Part shown: in pieces, positions 50,613-61,036 of the stretch
How positions within the stretch are numbered: position 1 is the first letter of the stretch
How the letters are laid out: the number at the start of each line of letters is the position of its first letter
From: Alcaligenaceae bacterium SAGV5
Lineage (GTDB): Bacteria; Pseudomonadota; Gammaproteobacteria; Burkholderiales; Burkholderiaceae_B
Assembly (NCBI GenBank): GCA_009360345.1
Contig: SPDP01000006.1
Location: 248,001-312,000, forward strand
Length of the DNA stretch: 64,000 nucleotides
Direction: 5' to 3'
Position numbers and translations under genes: made by a program
The notes under the pieces: model-generated
The model's input: the letters and a program-made list of their open reading frames with translations, nothing else
What the model was told of the DNA's origin: nothing
Database searches by the model: none

Positions 50613-51557
50613 ATGAAAACCGGCGCCTCCCCCTCCATCGACCGCATCGAACTCATGCAGACCTTCGTCCGGATCGTCGAAGCCGGGAGCCTGTCCGCCG
50701 CCGCCGTACAACTGGGCACCACGCAGCCCACGGTCAGCCGCAGGCTGCAAACCTTGGAACGCCTCCTGGGGCTGCGCCTGTTGCAGCGCTCCACGCATGG
50801 CATGGCGCTGACCAGCGACGGTGAACGCTGCTATGCCCACGCGAAGGAGCTGGGCGCGACCTGGGACGCCATGGAGGCGGACCTGCGCGGCGCCCACGAC
50901 GAGCCGCGCGGCACGCTGCGCGTGCTGGTACCGCATGCCTTCGGCCAGGACCAGATGGTGGCGCCGCTGGCCGACTACCTGCGGCGCTATCCCGAGGCCT
51001 CGGTCGAATGGCTGCTGCAGGACCGCCACGCCGACTTCATCGCCGAAGGACTGGACTGCGCGATCCAGGTCGGCGCGGTGAACGACCCGGACGTGGTCGC
51101 CATCCTGCTGGCCGAAGTGCCCCGCATCGTCGTGGCCGCGCCCTCCCTGCTGCCGGACGGCGCGCCGGCGGACGAGATCGCGGTGCTGGAAACACTGCCC
51201 TGGGTGGCGCTGAACATGTACTACCGCGACGAGGTGGTCCTGACGCGCGGCGCCGACGGCCTCGGCCACCGCTTCCCCATTCGCCCGCGCATGAGCACCG
51301 ACAGCCTGTACGCGCTGCGCACCGCCATGCTGGACGGCGTGGGCGCCGGCATCGCGTCGGCCTGGGTGGTCGCCGACGACCTGCGCCAGGGCCGGCTGCG
51401 CCATGTCGCCCCCCTGTGGCGCGCCGCCTCGTTGCCGGTGTACCTGATCTATCCATACGCCCGCTACTACCCGGCCAAGCTGCGCGCCTTCATCGACATG
51501 ATGCGCGCTTCGATGCCGACCATGGCGGGCGTGGCGCCCGCACTCACTCGATACTGA
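50613..51557 (+). CDS. LysR-family transcriptional regulator
   Basis: A 314-residue regulator. The HTH is at about 10-68 (MQTFVRIVEAGSLSAAAVQLGTTQPTVSRRLQTLERLLG), followed by an effector domain of the CrgA/PecT-like branch (DCAIQVGAVNDPDVVA). It is divergent from the MFS gene, which it probably controls. Its 3' end overlaps the convergent Bug gene by 14 bases. Confidence 0.92.
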   Translation: MKTGASPSIDRIELMQTFVRIVEAGSLSAAAVQLGTTQPTVSRRLQTLERLLGLRLLQRSTHGMALTSDGERCYAHAKELGATWDAMEADLRGAHDEPRGTLRVLVPHAFGQDQMVAPLADYLRRYPEASVEWLLQDRHADFIAEGLDCAIQVGAVNDPDVVAILLAEVPRIVVAAPSLLPDGAPADEIAVLETLPWVALNMYYRDEVVLTRGADGLGHRFPIRPRMSTDSLYALRTAMLDGVGAGIASAWVVADDLRQGRLRHVAPLWRAASLPVYLIYPYARYYPAKLRAFIDMMRASMPTMAGVAPALTRY

Positions 51558-52509
51558 TGCTGGCCGCCTTGATCAGCTTGGCATACTTGGCGCTTTCGGC
51601 ACGGACATAGTCCGCGAACGCCTGGGGCGACGATCCCTTGCCGACGAACGCCTGTTCGCTCAGCGTCTGCCTGACCCGCGGCGAATCGATGGCCTGGCGC
51701 ACGGCATCGTGGAGCCTCGCCACCACGTCGGCGGGCAGCCCCGCCGGCCCCCACAGGCCATACCAGGACACCATCTCGAATCCTCGCAGGCCCGACTCGG
51801 CCACCGTGGGCACATCGGGCAGCGACGGCAGGCGCTGGGCGCTGGTGACCGCCAGCGCCTTGGTGCGGCCGGCCTTGACCGGCGGCAGCGATGACGGCAC
51901 GGCGTCGATGACGGCGCTGATGTGGCCGCCCATGAGGTCGGTCAGCGCCGGGCCGGTGCCCTTGTACAGCACCACGGGGATGTCGGCCTTGGCCTCGTAG
52001 CTGATGGCCGCTTCGGCCAGGTGGCTGGCCGAGCCGGCGGCGGAGGCGCCGAAGAAATACTTGCCGGGCGCCTGGTGCGCCAGCGCGATGAATGCCTTGA
52101 GGTCTTTCGCCGGCACGCCGGGGTTGGCGGTGACCAGCAGCGGCACTTCGCCCAGGTTGGTGATGGGGGTGAAGTCCTTGTGGATATCGTAGGGCAGGGC
52201 CTTGAGCAGCCACGGCCCGGCCGCGAAGGTCGAGGCATTGACCAGCAGGGTGTAGCCATCGGCCGGCGCGCGCGCCACGGCCTCGCTGCCGATCGACCCG
52301 CTGGCGCCGGCGCGGTTCTCGACCACGAAGGTCTGGCCCAGCTGGTGGCCCAGGCTGTCGGCGAACACGCGCGCCACCGCGTCCACCGTGCCGCCCGGCG
52401 GATAGGGCACGATGACGCGGACGGGCCGCTGGGGATAGGCCTGCGCGCTGGCGGCCGCGGTGGCGGCGCAGGCCAGCAGGCCGGCGAGATATCGGATGAA
52501 AGGCTTCAT
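51544..52509 (-). CDS. Bug/TctC-family periplasmic solute-binding protein
   Basis: A 321-residue receptor with a signal peptide (about 1-24, AAASAQA). Marks are RPVRVIVPYPPGGTVD, ENRAGASGSIGSE and RAPADGYTLLV. GGAG precedes the ATG. It follows the CobW gene by 32 bases in the same direction, so it is probably the last gene of the HyuAB-CobW operon and its binding protein for the substrate. Confidence 0.92.
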   Translation of the reverse strand: MKPFIRYLAGLLACAATAAASAQAYPQRPVRVIVPYPPGGTVDAVARVFADSLGHQLGQTFVVENRAGASGSIGSEAVARAPADGYTLLVNASTFAAGPWLLKALPYDIHKDFTPITNLGEVPLLVTANPGVPAKDLKAFIALAHQAPGKYFFGASAAGSASHLAEAAISYEAKADIPVVLYKGTGPALTDLMGGHISAVIDAVPSSLPPVKAGRTKALAVTSAQRLPSLPDVPTVAESGLRGFEMVSWYGLWGPAGLPADVVARLHDAVRQAIDSPRVRQTLSEQAFVGKGSSPQAFADYVRAESAKYAKLIKAASISIE

Positions 52510-52541
52510 GTCGGTCTCCTTGTCGTTGTGATGAGGCGGGG

Positions 52542-53579
52542 CTAGGCTTGTCGGTGCTCGAAGATCCTCAGGGTGTCGTCGACCAGATCGCGCTCGACGT
52601 CCCGGGTGATGAAGACGATGCGGGTGCGGCGGTCATCGTCGGGCCAGGCAGGCAGGAAGGAATGGGGATGGAACACGTGCTGCACCCCGTGGATGACCAC
52701 TGGCCTGCCAGGGTGCTCGATCACGTTGACGATGCCCTTCACGCGCAGCAGGTCGGGGCCGCGCAGCGTGGACAGCATGGCCAGCCAGCGCTGCACGCCG
52801 GCCCATGACACGGGTTCGTCGCGGGTCACCACGTACGACCGAATCCGGTCGCCGTGGCGGGTGCGGTCGTGGTCGTGGGTATGGCCGTGATCGTGATCAT
52901 GGGCAGGATGCCCGCGCGCGTCGTCATGCGCCTCGGCGCGCAGCCAGCGGCGCACGTCCGGCGGCCGTCCGCCGGGTGCCGCCAGCCAATCGCCATCGTC
53001 CTTGCCGGCGCGGACCGCGTCGGCGCCGGGATTGATCTCCCGCAGCCGGCGCAGCAGGGCCTCGGCCTGGCCGGCGGACACGAGATCGGTCTTGGTCAGC
53101 ACCAGCAGATCCGCCACCGCCACCTGCTTGACCGCCTCCTCCTGCCGGTCCAGCGTATCGGCGCCGTTGCAGGCATCGACGGTGGTGGCCACGTGGTCCA
53201 GCCGATAACGGCGGGCAACCGCCGGCTCGCTCATCAGCGTATGCAGGATGGGGGCCGGATCGGCCAGGCCGGTGGTCTCGATCACCACGCGCCGCAGCGG
53301 CGCGGCCTGGCCCGCCAGCCGCCGGTCCAGCCGGTCGAAGGCCTCGACCAGGTCGCCGCGGATGGTGCAGCAGATGCAGCCGTTGGACAGCAGCACCATG
53401 TCCTCGGCGCTTTGTTCGAGCAGGTGGTGGTCCAGCCCGACCTCGCCGAACTCGTTGATGATGACCGCCGTGTCGCGCAGGGCCGGCCGCGCCAGCAGGC
53501 GGTTCAGCAGCGTGGTCTTCCCGCTTCCCAGGAAGCCGGTCAATACCGTGACCGGTATGCGGTCGTCCGTCTCTATCAT
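52542..53579 (-). CDS. CobW/G3E-family P-loop GTPase, putative metallochaperone
   Basis: A 345-residue G3E GTPase. The Walker A loop GFLGSGKTT is at 15-23, the metal-binding CICC motif at 68-71, ETTGLADP is switch-II-like, and TKTDLV is the base-specificity motif. A His/Asp-rich metal loop ([12 protein letters not shown]) lies near residues 231-242, and a CobW C-terminal domain follows. Such proteins deliver Zn, Co or Fe to client enzymes using GTP. It overlaps the small Cys protein gene by four bases (ATGA), so its client is probably the adjacent hydantoinase. Confidence 0.92.
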
Positions 53580-53953
53580 GGCAAGGCTCCGGAACGCGCG
53601 CCGCCGTGCAGGCGGGCGAAGGAACTCAGGGTGCGGTCCAGCCGGCCCAGCAGCCACGCCGCACCGGCGGCGGGGGCACCGCCCGCGGGATCGGCCAACG
53701 CCGCCAGCACGGCCACCATGCCCCCCTCGTGTCCGGCGGGGGCATGGCATGCCAGCAGGGCGTGGGCCTCGGCCTCGCCCAGGCGGCCGGCATCGTCGCG
53801 CAGGTAGTCCAGGATGTCGCGCTCGAAATCCTGCAGCCGCAGTGTCACGCCGCCCATGCCGCACGCGCAGGCACCGCCCATGGAGACGTGCTGCAGCGCC
53901 ACGTCATTCCACAGGCGCAGCAACGCGGCGGCGCGGGCGGCATCAGGCCGCAC
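53576..53953 (-). CDS. small Cys/His-rich protein of unknown family
   Basis: A 125-residue protein I do not recognise. An N-terminal helix (about 5-22) leads to a conserved-looking [10 protein letters not shown] turn with Cys29 and Cys31. Further possible ligands are His22, His64, Cys69, His70 and His75. A helical, Ala-rich C-terminal half follows with no signal peptide. It overlaps hyuB by 11 bases and CobW by four, so production is coupled to both. The cluster of possible metal ligands between a metalloenzyme and a CobW chaperone suggests a metal-transfer adaptor; this is inference. Confidence 0.8.
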
Positions 53954-55694
53954 GGCGGCTCCGCAGCGCCTCGGTGGCGGCGCGGTCCACCGCGCCGTCG
54001 GCGGTCATCGCCACGCCATAGACCTCGCGTGCCGCCCCCGCGCTGACATAGCCCTCGCGCACATCCTCGGCCACCGTCTCGGGGTCGCGCCCGCGCGGAT
54101 CGCCGAAGCCGCCGCCGCCGCCCGACAACATCTTGTAGGCATCGCCGCGCTCCAGCCGCACGTTGAAGATCTTGGCATTGGGCATGCCGTCGTCCCATTC
54201 GCCCTTGCGGCGGATGGCGATGCCGTTGCCCGCGGCCTCGTGCCCGCCCTCCAGTCCCCAGGGCTTGCAGTGCATGCGGTCGATGCGCGTGGTCACGGCG
54301 AAGGGGGACAGGGCCTGCACCACCATCTCCGCGCCCAACCCGCCGCGATACGTGCCGGCGCCGCCGCTGTCGGCGCGGATGGCATAGCGCTCGACCAGCA
54401 CCGGATACTTGGCTTCGAGCTGCTCGGTAGGACTGTTGTGGGTATCGCCATCGTTGATGCACACCGTGACCGACACCCCGTCCTCGCGCGACTTCGCGCC
54501 CCAGCCTCCGCCCAGCGGGCCGATGCCCACGATGAACAGGCGCCCGTCCTCGGGCGAGATGCCGTGGATGTTGGGAAACACCAGGTCGGCATGGTGGCCG
54601 GCGATGGCGCGGTCGGGTATGGCCGGCGCCAGCGCCTTGAAGATGGTGTCGATGACGGTCATGGGGAAGGTCATCCAGACCCGCATCGGGAACGGGCGCT
54701 CGGCGCTGATGACGGTGCCCATGGGCATGACGACCTTCAGCGGCCGGAAGCTGCCGTCGTTGACCGGATAGTCGGTGGGCGTGGTCAGGCACTTGAAGGC
54801 CACCTGCGCGCAGGCGATGCCGGTGGTGAAGCCGGAGTTGTAGAAGCCGCGCACCTGCCGGCTCACGTCCGACAGGTCGATGGTCATCTCGTCGCCCTGC
54901 TTGATCACCTTGACCCGGATGGGAATGCGCCGCCCCACGTCCACGCCATCGTCGTCCATGTAGGACTCGGCCTCGTAGGTGCCGTCGGGAATGCTGAGCG
55001 TATTCTGCCGCGCGACCGCTTCCGACTGGTCCATGATCTGCGCGATCGAGGCATGCACGGCATCGGCGCCGTAGCGCTGGACCAGTTCCAGGAAGCGCCG
55101 CTCGCCGGTGGTGATGGCGGTGATCTGCGCGCGCAGGTCTCCCAGCGCCCGCTCGGGCAGGCGCACGTTCATCGCGACGATGTCGACCAGGTCCTGGTTG
55201 ACCACGCCCGCGCGGCGGTATTTGACGATGGGGATCTGTATCCCTTCGGAGAAGATGTCGGTCGTGACCTGCCCCAGCGTGCCGCCGACGTCCAGCCAAT
55301 GCGCCATGCAGCAGGTGAAGGCGACGATGCGGCCCTCGTGGAACACCGGCATGGCGAAGGTGAAATGGTTCAGGTGGCTGCCGGTGACGTAGGCATCATT
55401 GGTGACCAGAATGTCGCCGGGATGGATGTTCTCCAATCCGAAGTGGCGGATCTTGGCCTTGACGGTCTCGGACATCCCGCGGATGAACATGGGCAGGCCC
55501 AGGCCGATCGACACCGTGTCGCCTTCCGGCGTGAACAGGCCCACCGTGAAATCCAGCGCCTCATAGATGATGAGGTTGTAGGCGGTCCTCATCAGGTTGG
55601 TCTTCATTTCCTCCGTCACGGCCAGGAGGCCGTTGCGGATGATCTCCACCGTCACGGGATCGACGGCGTGCTGTTTCGTTTCTCGCGCGTTCAT
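53943..55694 (-). CDS. hydantoinase B/oxoprolinase family, B subunit
   Basis: A 583-residue HyuB-type subunit. MNARETKQHAVDPVTVEIIRNGL and FTVGLFTPEGDTVSIGLG are characteristic of the N-terminus; GGGWGAKSREDG and SGGGGGFGDPRGRDP (near 505-519) are conserved Gly-rich blocks. With the A subunit it forms an ATP-dependent amidohydrolase or carboxylase, as in N-methylhydantoinase, 5-oxoprolinase and acetophenone carboxylase. It overlaps hyuA by one base and the small Cys gene by 11. Confidence 0.94.
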   Translation of the reverse strand: MNARETKQHAVDPVTVEIIRNGLLAVTEEMKTNLMRTAYNLIIYEALDFTVGLFTPEGDTVSIGLGLPMFIRGMSETVKAKIRHFGLENIHPGDILVTNDAYVTGSHLNHFTFAMPVFHEGRIVAFTCCMAHWLDVGGTLGQVTTDIFSEGIQIPIVKYRRAGVVNQDLVDIVAMNVRLPERALGDLRAQITAITTGERRFLELVQRYGADAVHASIAQIMDQSEAVARQNTLSIPDGTYEAESYMDDDGVDVGRRIPIRVKVIKQGDEMTIDLSDVSRQVRGFYNSGFTTGIACAQVAFKCLTTPTDYPVNDGSFRPLKVVMPMGTVISAERPFPMRVWMTFPMTVIDTIFKALAPAIPDRAIAGHHADLVFPNIHGISPEDGRLFIVGIGPLGGGWGAKSREDGVSVTVCINDGDTHNSPTEQLEAKYPVLVERYAIRADSGGAGTYRGGLGAEMVVQALSPFAVTTRIDRMHCKPWGLEGGHEAAGNGIAIRRKGEWDDGMPNAKIFNVRLERGDAYKMLSGGGGGFGDPRGRDPETVAEDVREGYVSAGAAREVYGVAMTADGAVDRAATEALRSRRAA

Positions 55695-57787
55695 CAGCGT
55701 TCGCTCCCGATGGCCACATGCAGGTTGCCGCAGTCGTCCACGGTCAATTCGTCGCCCGGCTGGACGACGGTCGTGGAGGCGTGTTCTTCGATCAGGGCCG
55801 GGCCCGGGACGCGGTTGCCGGCCAGCAGGGCATCGCGGCGGTACACCGGCGTCGGCACCTGGCCGTGCGAACGGAAGTACACCGGCTTGGTCGCGCGCAG
55901 CGCGCCCTCGGGCGGCGTCTGCCCGCCGGCCTGCACGACATGCCGGGGCGGCTTGCGCATCGCGCCCAGCACGGTCACGCGCAAGCTGACGATGTCGGCC
56001 GGCTCGGCCGGTGCGCTGGTGCCGTAGCGGATGGCGTGGACGTCGTCGAAATGGCGCTTGATCGCGTCGCGGTCCTGGCGCTCGAAGTACACGCGGGGCA
56101 GCTCCACCGTGACCGCGTGTTCCTGGCCGACGTAGCGCATGTCGGCCGAGCGCTCGATGACGATCTCGTCCGGCCGCACCGCCGAGGCCGCGACCGCCGC
56201 CCGCCCCTCCTCTTCCATCGACGCGTACAACGACTCGATCTCGTCGAACGACAGATCGTCCAGGTGGCGGAACACCGATCGCACGTAGTCATAGCGCAGG
56301 TCGCTGAACAACATGCCGTAGGCCGAGAAATAGCCCGGCGCGTAGGGAATCAGCACGCGGCGGATGCCGAGCTCGCGCGCGATGGCCGAGGCATGCAGCG
56401 GTCCCGCGCCGCCGTAGACCACCATGGTGAAGCTGCCGGCGTCCAGGCCGCGCTCGGTGGTGACGGCCTTGACCGCGTGCGACATCGCGGTCACCGCGAT
56501 GCGCAGGATGCCGTCCGCGGCCTCGACCGTTTCCAGCCCCAGTGGCGCGGCGATGCGCGCAAGCATCGCCGCGCGCGCGCCCTCCAGGTCCAGCGACATC
56601 TCGCCGCCCAGGAAATGCCCGGCATCCAGGCGGCCCAGGACCAGGTTGGCATCGGTCACGGTGGGCTCGGTACCGCCCCGTGCATAGCAGACCGGACCGG
56701 GCATCGACCCGGCGCTGCGCGGCCCCACGCGCAGCGCATTGCCCAACTCGACGCGCGCGATGCTGCCGCCGCCGGTGCCGACCTCGAAGATGTCCATCAT
56801 GGGAATCTGGATGGGCAGCGCCTGCTCGTAGCCTCCGACCAGCGCACTGCCGGTGGTAAGCGGCCGGCCCTCGCTGATCACCCCCGCCTTGGCCGTCGTG
56901 CCGCCCATGTCGAAAGCGATGGCATCGGGCAATCCCAGTTGCGCGCAGATCGCCTGGGCGCCGATGACCCCGGCGGCGGGACCCGACTCCAGCATGCGCA
57001 CACATTCGCGGCGCGCATGCTCCAGCGGGAACAACCCGCCGGTGGACTGCACCGCATAGAAATCGCCGCCGAAGCCGCGCTCGCCCAGGTGCGCCTCCAG
57101 TTGGCCCAGATAAGCCGACACGCGCGGTCCCACGTAGGCATTGGCGACGGCGGTCGACACGCGTTCGAACTCGCGGTATTCCTGCGACAGCTCATGCGAG
57201 GCGGTGACAAAGGCGTGCGGCAGTTCCTCGAGCAGGATTTCCTTCACGCGCTTCTCGTGGTCGGGCTTGCGATAGGAATGCAGCAGCAGCACCGCGGCGG
57301 CCTCCACGCCCTGCGCCTTCAGTTCCCGCGCGACCTCGCGCACCCGCGTCTCGTCCAGGGGCTTGTGGACGCTGCCGTCCGCGCGCAGCCGCTCCTCGAC
57401 TTCGTAGCGCAGCGAGCGCTTGACCAGCGGCGTGTGCTTGGTGAAAAAAAGGTTGTAGGCATCGGGGCGGTTGACGCGGCCGATCTCGTAGATGTCGCGG
57501 AATCCCTCGGTGATCAGCAGCGCCGTCTTCGCGCCATTGCGTTCGAGCAGCGTGTTGATCGCGATGGTCGAGCCATGCAGGAAAAGATAGCCGTTGCGCA
57601 GGTCGATGCCCGCGCCGTCCAGCGTGTGCTGGATGCCTTCGACCAGGCGTCCGTGCGTGGACAGGGCCTTGCCGAAAAGCAGGGTACCGGCGCTTTCGTC
57701 GAACGCGGCCATGTCGGTGAACGTGCCGCCGATGTCCACGGCGATGCGCAGGGGCGCCGATGCGGGCGCCAGGTTGGATGCGGTCAT
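55694..57787 (-). CDS. hydantoinase A/oxoprolinase family, A subunit (ATPase)
   Basis: A 697-residue HyuA-type subunit of the ASKHA ATPase fold. IAVDIGGTFTDMAAFD (about 15-30) is the phosphate-1 loop, HGSTIAINTLLERNGAK follows, and DMGGTTAKAGVI and VYGGAGPLHA are the other nucleotide motifs. The start at 57787 is chosen because the family begins close to VDIGGTFTD; an in-frame ATG at 57880 would add 31 residues. It is the first gene of the operon and divergent from the LysR gene at 57893. Confidence 0.94.
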   Translation of the reverse strand: MTASNLAPASAPLRIAVDIGGTFTDMAAFDESAGTLLFGKALSTHGRLVEGIQHTLDGAGIDLRNGYLFLHGSTIAINTLLERNGAKTALLITEGFRDIYEIGRVNRPDAYNLFFTKHTPLVKRSLRYEVEERLRADGSVHKPLDETRVREVARELKAQGVEAAAVLLLHSYRKPDHEKRVKEILLEELPHAFVTASHELSQEYREFERVSTAVANAYVGPRVSAYLGQLEAHLGERGFGGDFYAVQSTGGLFPLEHARRECVRMLESGPAAGVIGAQAICAQLGLPDAIAFDMGGTTAKAGVISEGRPLTTGSALVGGYEQALPIQIPMMDIFEVGTGGGSIARVELGNALRVGPRSAGSMPGPVCYARGGTEPTVTDANLVLGRLDAGHFLGGEMSLDLEGARAAMLARIAAPLGLETVEAADGILRIAVTAMSHAVKAVTTERGLDAGSFTMVVYGGAGPLHASAIARELGIRRVLIPYAPGYFSAYGMLFSDLRYDYVRSVFRHLDDLSFDEIESLYASMEEEGRAAVAASAVRPDEIVIERSADMRYVGQEHAVTVELPRVYFERQDRDAIKRHFDDVHAIRYGTSAPAEPADIVSLRVTVLGAMRKPPRHVVQAGGQTPPEGALRATKPVYFRSHGQVPTPVYRRDALLAGNRVPGPALIEEHASTTVVQPGDELTVDDCGNLHVAIGSER

Positions 57788-57892: not shown

Positions 57893-58909
57893 ATGTCTTC
57901 ACCCACGGGCCATCCCATGAACCAGGCCGATCTGAAGCTGTTCGTCGAAGTGGCCGAAAGCGGCAGCTTCACCAAGGTCGCGGCCGCGCGCATGACCGTG
58001 CAATCACACATCAGCCGCCAGATCGGCAACCTGGAGCGCGAGTGCGGCGGCAGGCTGTTCCGCCGCACCGGCCGGGGCGTGGTCCTGACCGAACTGGGCG
58101 AGCACATCATCGCCCGCGTGCGGACCTGGCTGGCCGACACCGACCAGTTGTTCCGCGAGATCCGCTCCACATCCCCGGTACCCATGGGCGAGGTCCGCCT
58201 GGGCATCCTGCCTTCGGCCGCCCATCCGCTCCTGACCACGCTGTTCGGCCGCGTGCGCGAACAGTACCCGCTGATCCGCCTGAACGTGCGCGAGGGGCAG
58301 GGCGGAGAACTCGACGCGCTGCTGGACGCGGGCCTGGTCGACATGGCCATCCTGTTCCGCTTCCACAAGCCGGCCAGCGCGGAGGAACGGCTGCTCGCCA
58401 CCGGCCACACCTATCTCGTGGCGCGTCCGGGCGACGCGCTCACCCAGGCGCCTTCCGTCGACTTCGCCAGATTGCAGGACCTGCCCCTGGTGCTGCCCCG
58501 GCGGCCCGCCCATTGGCGCGCGATCCTGGACGAAACCGCGCGCAGCAAAGGCTTCGCGCTCCAGGCGGTGATCGAGGCCGACTCGCTGACCGCGCAAAAA
58601 GAACTGGCCGCCACCCAGTCGGTGTATGCCGTCCTCGGCCCTTATTCGATCATGCACGAACTGCGCCAGGGATCGCTGCAGGCCACCCGCCTCGTCAATC
58701 CCGACCTGCGCCGCTACGTCACCCTGGCCCTGCCGAAATCGGGCGTGATGACGCCGGCCTGCCGGGCCGTCTCGACCATGCTGCAGGACATCGTCGAACA
58801 ATGGGGCGGCGACCTCAGTCCGCCCGGGACGCCAGCAGCCGCCAGCCCACCCACAGCCCGCCGCCGCAGGCCAGCGCGAACACCCAGCCGGACCCGGCCG
58901 CGGCCATGA
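57893..58909 (+). CDS. LysR-family transcriptional regulator
   Basis: A LysR protein of 338 residues from the ATG at 57893, or 330 from 57917. The HTH is at about 9-68 (MNQADLKLFVEVAESGSFTKVAAARMTVQSHISRQIGNLERECGG). The effector domain ends near 305; the last 30 or so Pro/Arg-rich residues are antisense to the YeeE gene and exceed family length. It is divergent from hyuA with about 105 bases between, and probably regulates the hydantoinase operon. Confidence 0.9.
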   Translation: MSSPTGHPMNQADLKLFVEVAESGSFTKVAAARMTVQSHISRQIGNLERECGGRLFRRTGRGVVLTELGEHIIARVRTWLADTDQLFREIRSTSPVPMGEVRLGILPSAAHPLLTTLFGRVREQYPLIRLNVREGQGGELDALLDAGLVDMAILFRFHKPASAEERLLATGHTYLVARPGDALTQAPSVDFARLQDLPLVLPRRPAHWRAILDETARSKGFALQAVIEADSLTAQKELAATQSVYAVLGPYSIMHELRQGSLQATRLVNPDLRRYVTLALPKSGVMTPACRAVSTMLQDIVEQWGGDLSPPGTPAAASPPTARRRRPARTPSRTRPRP

Positions 58910-60002
58910 TGCCGGACAACAGCGTGCCCACCGTGCAGCCCAGGGCGACCAGGGCGCCCCAGCCCATCAGGACGCCGCCCAGCACGGCGCGGACGGCCTG
59001 GCCCGCGGACGGCAGCCGGGGGCGGAATTCGCCGGCCGCCAGCGCCGACGCCAGCGATGCCAGCACCAGCCCGCCCACGAATACGCCGTTGCGGGACAAA
59101 AGCGTTTCCTTGACCGCGGTGGCGCAGCCCGCGAAGGTATCCAGGCCCTCCAGCCGGGCCGGGAGCCACCCCTGCGCGGCACCCAGTGTGCGCGCCAGGC
59201 TGCCCAGCTCGGCGGTCACGCCCAGGGGCGCCACCCTCAGATAGGCCAGGACGCCGATCCCCGCCACCAGCGCTCCGCCGGCAAACCCCGGCCACCGCGC
59301 ATCGAAGAACATCTCGGACAGGCGCCGCGATCGCATCGATCCGGCCGCCGCGGTCCCGGGCTGCCGGTGGCGGCGCAGCAACCACGCCGCCACGGCGGCC
59401 AGCACCGCCACTTGCAGCAGCAGCGATCCGCCATAGCCCAGGTAGTGGGGCAGCCACCATACCGGTGCCGCCTGGATGGCTTGCAGATAAAGGAAGTTCC
59501 ATGAAGCGAAACCCAGGCCGAATCCCGCGACGGCGCCGAGCAAGGCCAGCACCGACGCCAACGAGCCCTCGCCCAGCCGGTACAGATGCGCGCTGATGCA
59601 GGAGCCGCTGACCGCCATGCCCAGGCCGAACACCGCGGCGCCGAGTACCAGCACCCAGCTGACGGGCCCGATATGCGCTCCCGCCGGCAATTGCCCGCCT
59701 TGCGGAACGGGCAGGAAGGCGCCGAACACGGCGTGGTAGCCGATCGTCCCCAGCGCCAGCGCCGTCACGATCCCCAGCAATCCCCGCGCATCGCGAACCT
59801 GCAGATAGTCCCGCGTGACGCAGTAGAAGCAGAACCGGGACCGCTGCAGGACCAGTCCGAAAAGCGCGCCGCTGGCCAGCGAAAAAGCCAGGATGCGGCC
59901 GTCGCCGGGCACCTCGGACAGGCTGAAGCCCGCCAATGCCAGCGCCGCGCCGATCAGGACGGCGGCCGCGCCCGGCAGGCGCGCGCGCAAGGCAACGGTC
60001 AA
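58815..60002 (-). CDS. YeeE/YedE-family sulfur (thiosulfate) transporter
   Basis: A 395-residue integral membrane protein with about ten segments. Conserved Cys lie in RFCFYC, GSCISAH, AGCATAV and LGCTVG, the pattern of YeeE, which carries thiosulfate through three Cys in its core. No ATG opens the family-like N-terminus; TTG at 60002 gives LTVALRARLPG and overlaps the rhodanese stop (TTGA), so translation is probably coupled. Its partner here is an exported rhodanese rather than the usual TusA-like YeeD. Confidence 0.88.
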   Translation of the reverse strand: MTVALRARLPGAAAVLIGAALALAGFSLSEVPGDGRILAFSLASGALFGLVLQRSRFCFYCVTRDYLQVRDARGLLGIVTALALGTIGYHAVFGAFLPVPQGGQLPAGAHIGPVSWVLVLGAAVFGLGMAVSGSCISAHLYRLGEGSLASVLALLGAVAGFGLGFASWNFLYLQAIQAAPVWWLPHYLGYGGSLLLQVAVLAAVAAWLLRRHRQPGTAAAGSMRSRRLSEMFFDARWPGFAGGALVAGIGVLAYLRVAPLGVTAELGSLARTLGAAQGWLPARLEGLDTFAGCATAVKETLLSRNGVFVGGLVLASLASALAAGEFRPRLPSAGQAVRAVLGGVLMGWGALVALGCTVGTLLSGIMAAAGSGWVFALACGGGLWVGWRLLASRAD

Positions 60003-60919
60003 GTGCTGCCCCAGACCGTGCCGGCAGGATTGCTGATGGGCACGCCCACCGTATTGCCGTACTCGGTCCACGAGCCGTCATAGTTGCGGACGTCGTAGCC
60101 CAGCAGCTTGCGCAGGGCGAACCACGAATGGCTGGAACGTTCGCCGATGCGGCAATAGGTAATGATGGGCTTGCGGCCGTCGATGCCCGCATCCGCGTAC
60201 AGCTTGCGGATCTCGGCAACGGGCTTGAAAGTGCCATCCTCGGCCACCAGCCGGCTCCACGTCACGTTGACCGCCCCTGGCACGTGGCCGGCGCGCACCG
60301 CCAGTTCAGGCACGCCCGGAGGCGCGAACACCTTGCCGTTGAACTCATCGGCGGAACGGATATCCACCAGCGCCACGTTGGCCTCCTTGCGCGCAGCCGC
60401 CACGACGTCGGCCAGGCGCGCCCGCAGCGCGGTATTGGCTGGCCGGATGGACACGTTGCCGGGGGCGGGCACGGTCGCGGCGGCCGCGAGCCGGCGCCCT
60501 TCGGCTTCCCACTTCTTGCGGCCGCCGTCCAGCAGCTTCACGTTGTCGATGCCATAGATATCGAATACCCAGGCCCCCCAGGCGGCGAACCAGTTGTTGT
60601 TGTCGCCGTAGAGCACGGTGATGCTGTCCTGGCTGACGCCGGACTGGCGCAGCAGCGCCTGGAAATGCTCCGGCTTGGCGATGTCCCGCTCGACCCGGTC
60701 GACCAGGTCGCTATGCCAACGGACATTCACCGCGCCCGGGATGTGGCCGCGCTCGTAGACCCCGGGGTTGACGCTGACCTCGATGACCCGCACCTTGGGA
60801 TTGGACAGGTTCTTCTCCAGCCACTCGGTCGAAACCAGATGCGGACTGTCGGCATGAGCCGGCGCGACGGCGGCGGCAAGAGCGGCTAGGGCAGCCGCGA
60901 ATAGCGTGCGTAGCGACAT
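59999..60919 (-). CDS. exported rhodanese (thiosulfate/3-mercaptopyruvate sulfurtransferase)
   Basis: A 306-residue tandem rhodanese. A Sec signal peptide spans about 1-23 (PAHA). The first rhodanese domain lacks the catalytic Cys (LYGDNNNW in that position); the second has the active loop TYCRIGERSSH with Cys256. GGAGA precedes the ATG at 60919. It is upstream of and overlaps the YeeE gene, so it probably handles thiosulfate or sulfane sulfur in the periplasm before uptake. Confidence 0.93.
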   Translation of the reverse strand: MSLRTLFAAALAALAAAVAPAHADSPHLVSTEWLEKNLSNPKVRVIEVSVNPGVYERGHIPGAVNVRWHSDLVDRVERDIAKPEHFQALLRQSGVSQDSITVLYGDNNNWFAAWGAWVFDIYGIDNVKLLDGGRKKWEAEGRRLAAAATVPAPGNVSIRPANTALRARLADVVAAARKEANVALVDIRSADEFNGKVFAPPGVPELAVRAGHVPGAVNVTWSRLVAEDGTFKPVAEIRKLYADAGIDGRKPIITYCRIGERSSHSWFALRKLLGYDVRNYDGSWTEYGNTVGVPISNPAGTVWGST

Positions 60920-61036
60920 GGTGGCGATCTCCGTTGCGCCGTGGATGAGCACGAACCTTAGCGAGAGCCGCCAGCCGGACGAACGATTCCTTTTCTATAT
61001 GTACATTTCCCGTTCAGTTTGCTGTCAGAAATGGCG

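Follow-up and report, generated by a model that had tools for sequence, protein, structure and literature searches.

Enzymes built from HyuA- and HyuB-type subunits have been described with and without a small third subunit. In the excerpted text of PMC5214803 and PMC5543143, hydantoinases are alpha-beta enzymes, and a small gamma subunit, which binds zinc through four Cys residues (Cys4) and is wrapped around the beta subunit, is reported only for the ketone carboxylases. Hydantoinase clusters contain alpha and beta genes only, acxC lies directly downstream of acxB, and apcB is the second gene of apcABCDE (excerpts of PMC5214803). CapB, the metal-site subunit of caprolactamase, binds its metal through Asp41, His99, Asp102, and His124, a tetrad conserved in related enzymes, and its metal-site mutants are inactive (excerpts of PMC8453981). 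Here we describe a hydantoinase-type operon in a 64,000-nucleotide stretch of the soil organism Alcaligenaceae bacterium SAGV5 (contig SPDP01000006.1, positions 248,001 to 312,000; hereafter the window), in which the gene of a 125-residue protein lies between hyuB and a gene for a CobW-type GTPase. An initial annotation of the window had noted that HyuA/HyuB relatives are metal dependent, in agreement with the mapped metal site of CapB (excerpts of PMC8453981), and had taken the small protein and CobW together as a built-in metallation module. We find that the small protein belongs to a real, undescribed family. We propose, with a probability of about 0.5, that it is a metal-handling partner of a distinct HyuB subfamily, to which it would dock and pass a bound metal.

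The small gene and its neighborhood

The operon consists of five minus-strand genes in the order hyuA-hyuB-small gene-cobW-bug, and the gene coordinates confirmed the previously noted overlaps of 1, 11, and 4 bases followed by a gap of 32 bases. Its features are as follows.

55694-57787, minus strand: hyuA, ATP-binding subunit of the hydantoinase/oxoprolinase/ketone-carboxylase family, 697 residues (Pfam Hydant_A_N, Hydantoinase_A, Hydant_A_C)
53943-55694, minus strand: hyuB, metal-site subunit, 583 residues, tetrad D48-H107-H110-H132 (Pfam Hydantoinase_B, E 1e-156)
55365-55367, minus strand: HyuB His110 codon; the residue occupies the position of the family Asp metal ligand (CapB Asp102; alignment to CapB 6yra_B)
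53576-53953, minus strand: small protein, 125 residues, GTG start, undescribed family predicted to be all-helical (no Pfam/NCBIfam family; AlphaFold2; 80 loci)
53861-53890, minus strand: codons of small-protein His22, Cys29, and Cys31 (H-x6-C-x-C; 81/81)
53606-53608, minus strand: codon of small-protein His116, at the end of the last predicted long helix (81/81)
52542-53579, minus strand: CobW/COG0523-type G3E GTPase, 345 residues, GCICC motif, His-rich loop (Pfam cobW E 5e-51, CobW_C E 6e-22)
51544-52509, minus strand: Bug/TctC periplasmic binding protein (Pfam TctC E 1e-64)

HyuA, HyuB, the N- and C-terminal domains of CobW, and the TctC/Bug protein were all recognized by Pfam at E 3e-19 or better. 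HyuB scored 522.9 bits for Hydantoinase_B against a cut-off of 26.8 and is thus a member of that family, and the GTPase, with both Pfam domains and GCICC in its translation, is of the COG0523/CobW type. HyuA and HyuB were also compared with the NCBIfam caprolactamase models CapA and CapB, for which they reached 513.7 and 286.6 bits against a cut-off of 1000. Since both scores are well below the cut-offs, hydantoinase is used here as a family name only.

Relatives of the small protein were retrieved by scanning 84,980 species genomes with the pattern [VL][RST]L[QED]DFE[RLH]D, taken from a conserved stretch of hyuB-linked members. The scan gave 82 relatives, of which the best 80 were kept (L043-L122). 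This set favors close relatives, and conservation within the pattern stretch is in part a product of the search. Retrieval did not draw on the Cys and His positions. Gene maps outside the window came from a crude GC-based gene caller. The 80 further loci encode the small protein at 34-93% identity, and the small proteins are 33-62% identical to the window's copy. The locus titles name Burkholderiales taxa, except for L048 (Betaproteobacteria) and L091 (Singulisphaera), both metagenome-assembled genomes; the L091 contig is possibly mis-binned.

The gene immediately upstream, in the same orientation, is hyuB in all 80 loci. HyuA is encoded in 79, the exception being a contig end. The distance between hyuB and the small gene, for which the small-gene start nearest the hyuB stop was chosen, was -11, -8, or -4 in 52 loci and +1 to +22 in 26; the last two loci have gaps of 96 and 245. 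Differences at codon positions 1, 2, and 3 numbered 6/6/20 and 7/6/26 for two near relatives, mainly at third positions, and 21-40/26-40/49-67 for five more distant ones, with a less marked third-position bias. The small gene is therefore real, because 80 further loci carry it directly after hyuB and the differences fall mainly at third codon positions. The earlier description of a protein of no recognized family held, as neither Pfam nor NCBIfam assigned a family to the window protein or to 42 relatives. None of the solved structures resembles the predicted fold convincingly, and we found no earlier description of the family in open PMC text.

The initial annotation had asked whether homologues always lie between hyuB and CobW. 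The hyuB side is constant, but CobW was found downstream in only 45/80 loci, starting less than 300 bases from the small gene in 43 and behind an MFS gene in 2. The window's own genome (6.0 Mb) holds a paralogous operon in the order hyuA-hyuB-bug-small gene, and none of the genome's 7 cobW matches is on that operon's contig. The built-in metallation module therefore fits roughly every second locus. CobW cannot form its core, since it was not found downstream in 35/80 loci and is missing from the paralogue's contig. The constant partner of the small protein in the retrieved loci is HyuB, not CobW.

Conserved residues and predicted structure

Residues W15, H22, C29, C31, S111, and H116 are invariant in the window protein and its 80 relatives (81/81). 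When nine distant members were added, H22, C29, and C31 were present in 90/90 and H116 in 89/90, with one gap. Cys29, Cys31, and Cys69, which the initial annotation had singled out together with several His residues, are all at the stated positions, and the first two share their invariance with H22 and H116. Cys69, however, is not conserved, position 69 being Ala in 38/81 and Gln in 13/81. An LxDFExDI stretch is also strongly conserved and is largely the search pattern itself. In 26 further loci from a genome-level search, the CxC pair was present in 26/26.

AlphaFold2 predicted five helices for the window protein (residues 3-25, 40-57, 61-70, 78-87, and 95-117) with a mean predicted local distance difference test (pLDDT) score of 87, and of near 66 for residues 21-40. 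The model of a 137-residue relative has the same five helices and a weak sixth (pLDDT 84). Helix 1 has H22 close to its end, with the CxC pair in the following loop, and helix 5 has H116 close to its end. In an up-down bundle these two helices would be expected to lie parallel, which could bring the four residues together in space. Judged from the invariant set, H22, C29, C31, and H116 look like one Cys2His2-type metal site.

By eye, a conserved extension after His116 is present in 30/35 small proteins without a CobW neighbor (L049-L051, L054-L056, and L059 among them) and absent in the 45 with CobW.

The HyuB partner

Alignment to 6yra_B placed D41, H99, D102, and H124 of CapB at D48, H107, H110, and H132 of the window's HyuB, so that the position of the metal site is shared, as is the two-subunit, ATP-dependent HyuA/HyuB architecture of CapA/CapB (6YRA). 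The third ligand differs, since His takes the place of Asp102. The extent of this change was examined in 136 distinct HyuB proteins at least 54% identical to the window's, of which 134 cover all four ligand positions and two (L091 and L171) are partial. The 134 proteins, first taken by tetrad and later recounted by identity (at least 54%), all have Asp-His-His-His rather than the published Asp-His-Asp-His, and His110 was found in 135/135 at that identity that cover the position.

The background consisted of 36 Hydantoinase_B matches in 31 genomes, 32 of which were examined as loci; the four left out are all from genome G026, and two of them are halves of one further subfamily gene (L135). Among the 32 there were 27 Asp-His-Asp-His tetrads, 2 Asp-His-Asn-His, 1 Asp-Gln-Asp-His, and 2 Asp-His-His-His, the last being the window gene and its paralogue. 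His at the third position thus occurred in 0/30 other HyuB proteins, and the tetrad of the window is a sequence variant within the HyuB family. The small gene follows the same division. Only the two Asp-His-His-His genes among the 7 hyuB genes of the window's genome have it within 1.5-kb flanks, and it was not found in the 1.5-kb flanks of the 30 other sampled HyuB. The subfamily is rare outside Burkholderiales: at E 1e-140 it was detected in 3/398 phylum-wide genomes, all Burkholderiales and one the window's own.

Three cysteines also mark the subfamily. Cys129, three residues before the ligand H132, is present in 131/134 members versus 3/30 other HyuB, Cys295 in 133/134 versus 1/30, and Cys302 in 134/134 versus 4/30. 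A thiol-redox partner, whose CxC pair or Cys-Cys tail (see below) keeps these three cysteines reduced, would account for their conservation; trxB-trxA follow the hyuB of a Streptomyces plasmid (L202), and a vicinal disulfide is described in the CapB pocket (excerpts of PMC8453981). We nevertheless regard this role as unlikely, as the invariance of H22 and H116 in the hyuB-linked set and the CobW neighbor in 45/80 loci favor a metal.

A sister clade with a Cys-Cys tail

Some HyuB proteins of the subfamily carry a C-terminal tail, defined by script as at least two Cys in the last six residues, with RCC and RCCS endings counted afterwards.

L130, L131, L137-L139, L161-L172, L190, L191, L197, L198: tailed HyuB, RCC/RCCS C-terminus

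Twenty complete tailed proteins, 57-63% identical to the window's HyuB, have an extension of 39-57 residues that ends in RCC or RCCS in 20/20 and in some contains His-rich stretches. No Cys was found in the last six residues of the other subfamily HyuB (0/114, 112 with complete ends). The tailed proteins form one clade (Shimodaira-Hasegawa-like approximate likelihood-ratio test, SH-aLRT, 97).

In the genome-level search, the small gene was found in 0/13 genomes of the family we label f46, whose subfamily HyuB are all tailed; 7/13 of these genomes pass the bar of at least 90% completeness and at most 5% contamination, and 6/13 miss it. In family f10, the same search found the small gene in 18/21 genomes. 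The three misses are G164 and G750, in which hyuA extends to the contig end, and G699, which yielded a tailed HyuB only. The small gene was linked to hyuA or hyuB in 10/18 of the f10 genomes, sometimes upstream and divergent.

The flexible C-terminal Cys pair of mercuric reductase hands metal to the active site, and the RCC(S) tail of HyuB resembles it by analogy. The tail is a candidate in-built metal or thiol relay.

Divergent copies

Distant copies of the small gene have other neighbors. An Amidohydro_2 gene adjoins the copy in L041 and, by eye, that in L230; an FAD_binding_2 gene followed by Bug adjoins L223, and L231 is similar by eye. The gene of a Rieske-type ring-hydroxylating alpha subunit adjoins L226 and, by eye, L227, L237, and L243. 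In three of the Rieske cases (G751, G752, and G753) a hyuA lies some 2 kb away, which means that hyuAB is not absent from their surroundings. The Amidohydro_2, FAD_binding_2, or Rieske oxygenase genes next to distant members speak against an exclusive pairing with HyuB.

A CSCCPG motif characterizes a divergent branch of the family, made up of loci L238, L240, L246, L247, and L248. Four of these lack His116, and the end of L246 is outside the stretch covered. The neighbors include a DndB-like gene in L247 (Pfam) and pgk-like genes in L240 and L248 (by eye).

Proposed role of the small protein

The small protein could stay bound as a permanent subunit, the third of the enzyme, and parallel the gamma subunit of acetone and acetophenone carboxylases without being related to it. 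AcxC and ApcB are likewise small Cys-bearing proteins encoded with HyuA/HyuB-type subunits, the size is near that of the Apc gamma subunit (15 kDa), and the site would again be Cys based (excerpts of PMC5214803 and PMC5543143). The place of acxC directly after the HyuB-type gene is matched in 80/80 loci, but not in the paralogue of the window's own genome, where Bug intervenes. The small gene adjoins hyuB with or without CobW, and the conserved LxDFExDI stretch, mostly the search pattern, could be an interface. However, an identity of 33-62%, compared with about 80% for HyuA and about 86% for HyuB in most of these operons, would be odd for a buried subunit; copies adjoin unrelated enzymes, and the protein is apparently replaceable by the HyuB tail. 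No sequence relation to gamma was found either, as no gamma family appeared among Pfam/NCBIfam matches up to E 1 for the window protein and 42 relatives. The gamma subunit has a four-Cys zinc site, whereas the small protein has two conserved Cys (CxC) with His22 and His116 and so no Cys4 set. CapA/CapB has no third subunit in the excerpted account (PMC8453981). We consider a permanent subunit somewhat improbable.

A carrier or maturation factor is more likely, because identity is only 33-62% for the small protein but mostly 83-98% for HyuB, CobW joins the small gene in about half of the loci, copies adjoin other metalloenzyme genes, and a Cys-Cys tail seems to be its substitute in one clade. 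The carrier and subunit readings share the core claim of a thiol/imidazole site acting on HyuB.

As a metal carrier, the five-helix protein would form one metal site from His22, Cys29, Cys31, and His116 and may dock on HyuB during HyuB synthesis. It would then pass metal to the Asp-His-His-His site of HyuB or guard the loading of that site. Where an adjacent CobW GTPase is present, it may charge or gate the metal step, and in the sister clade the C-terminal Cys-Cys tail of HyuB would do the same job in cis.

Two described systems offer parallels. COG0523/CobW activators such as Nha3 of Fe-type nitrile hydratase also place a G3E GTPase beside a metalloenzyme (excerpts of PMC2770081 and PMC9164220), but the constant element of the present loci is another protein, which is not a GTPase. 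The main text of PMC2770081 does not contain the word "hydantoin." In urease maturation by UreG-UreF-UreD/H, a G3E GTPase and non-GTPase helpers load a hydrolase (excerpts of PMC9164220). The parallel is one of function (works-like), and CobW is optional here.

Several observations weigh against a metal-handling partner of HyuB. CobW was not found downstream in 35/80 loci, although 6 of those contigs end within 1.5 kb, and a CxC pair can also be redox active. H22, H116, or both are missing in 12 of the 26 further loci; most of these 12 lie apart from hyuAB, and one, L233, faces hyuA (all by eye). A Microvirga copy beside an 80%-identical HyuB lacks both residues at their places. A Streptomyces plasmid HyuAB (L202 4944-8234) has Asp-His-His-His with neither a tail nor a detected small gene, and no small gene appears in the sequence retrieved around several tail-less HyuB. 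No hyuA or hyuB was seen within 1.5-kb flanks of the small gene in 8/18 f10 genomes, six f46 genomes fall below the quality bar given above, and an FAD_binding_2 neighbor is not an obvious metal client. Because the tailed proteins form one clade, the swap of small gene for tail is a single event and is suggestive, not statistical.

A broader scheme is offered tentatively, as a possibility that we hold well short of the metal-carrier proposal itself. This HyuAB branch may have rebuilt its active site, with a third His ligand and a conserved adjacent Cys, to hold another metal or a thiolate cofactor, and its loading may depend on CxC/His carriers in trans or as a cis Cys-Cys tail; the carrier family would also have been recruited to Rieske and amidohydrolase enzymes.

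Flanking genes and regulation

The operon is flanked on both sides by LysR genes.

57893-58909, plus strand: LysR gene, divergent from hyuA (Pfam HTH_1, LysR_substrate)
50613-51557, plus strand: LysR gene, other flank of the operon (Pfam)

Relatives of the first, at 58-66% identity, lie divergently upstream of hyuA in L035, L038, and L039, and this gene is the likely regulator of the operon. These LysR genes, together with those in two plasmid operons, leave little need for the small protein as a regulator or metal sensor carried along as a passenger of catabolic operons. Such a role would fit its place beside several different catabolic genes and a weak match of helices 2-4 to PDB 2g9w (E 0.011), which we take to be a BlaI-type repressor; Penicillinase_R was also matched by 2/43 members (best E 0.017). 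The invariable hyuB upstream in 80/80 loci and the all-helical models, both without winged-helix strands, argue against it, and we regard a regulator as very improbable compared with a metal-handling partner.

A Bug match lies within 3 kb downstream in 71/80 loci, and the proposal of the initial annotation that Bug supplies the substrate is plausible. In L058, L100, L101, L110, L112, L120, and L122, the small gene or CobW has an MFS gene (called by Pfam for the L100 gene only) behind it, either alongside Bug or in its place, which hints at how the substrate may be taken up. An FAA-hydrolase gene lies by hyuAB in L035 and on plasmids of a Comamonadaceae strain and of Microvirga ossetica, and farther off on the Streptomyces plasmid; the records of the Comamonadaceae and Microvirga ossetica plasmids list the product of the small gene as a "hypothetical protein."

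Elsewhere, on the minus strand of the window (58815-60952), the gene for a membrane protein matching Sulf_transp (Pfam) adjoins an open reading frame (59999-60952) that appears rhodanese-like by eye. The two are a possible sulfur-import pair.

Implications

We know of no account of how hydantoinase-type enzymes get their metal. The loci described here define a sharply bounded HyuB subfamily with a changed metal ligand, together with an undescribed family of putative helpers whose ligand set is invariant. The separate helper gene and, in the sister clade, the HyuB tail provide a natural experiment. The identity of the metal, the metallation of HyuB, and the choice of client by CobW are now directly testable, and "hypothetical protein" genes of soil and freshwater Burkholderiales gain a hypothesis.

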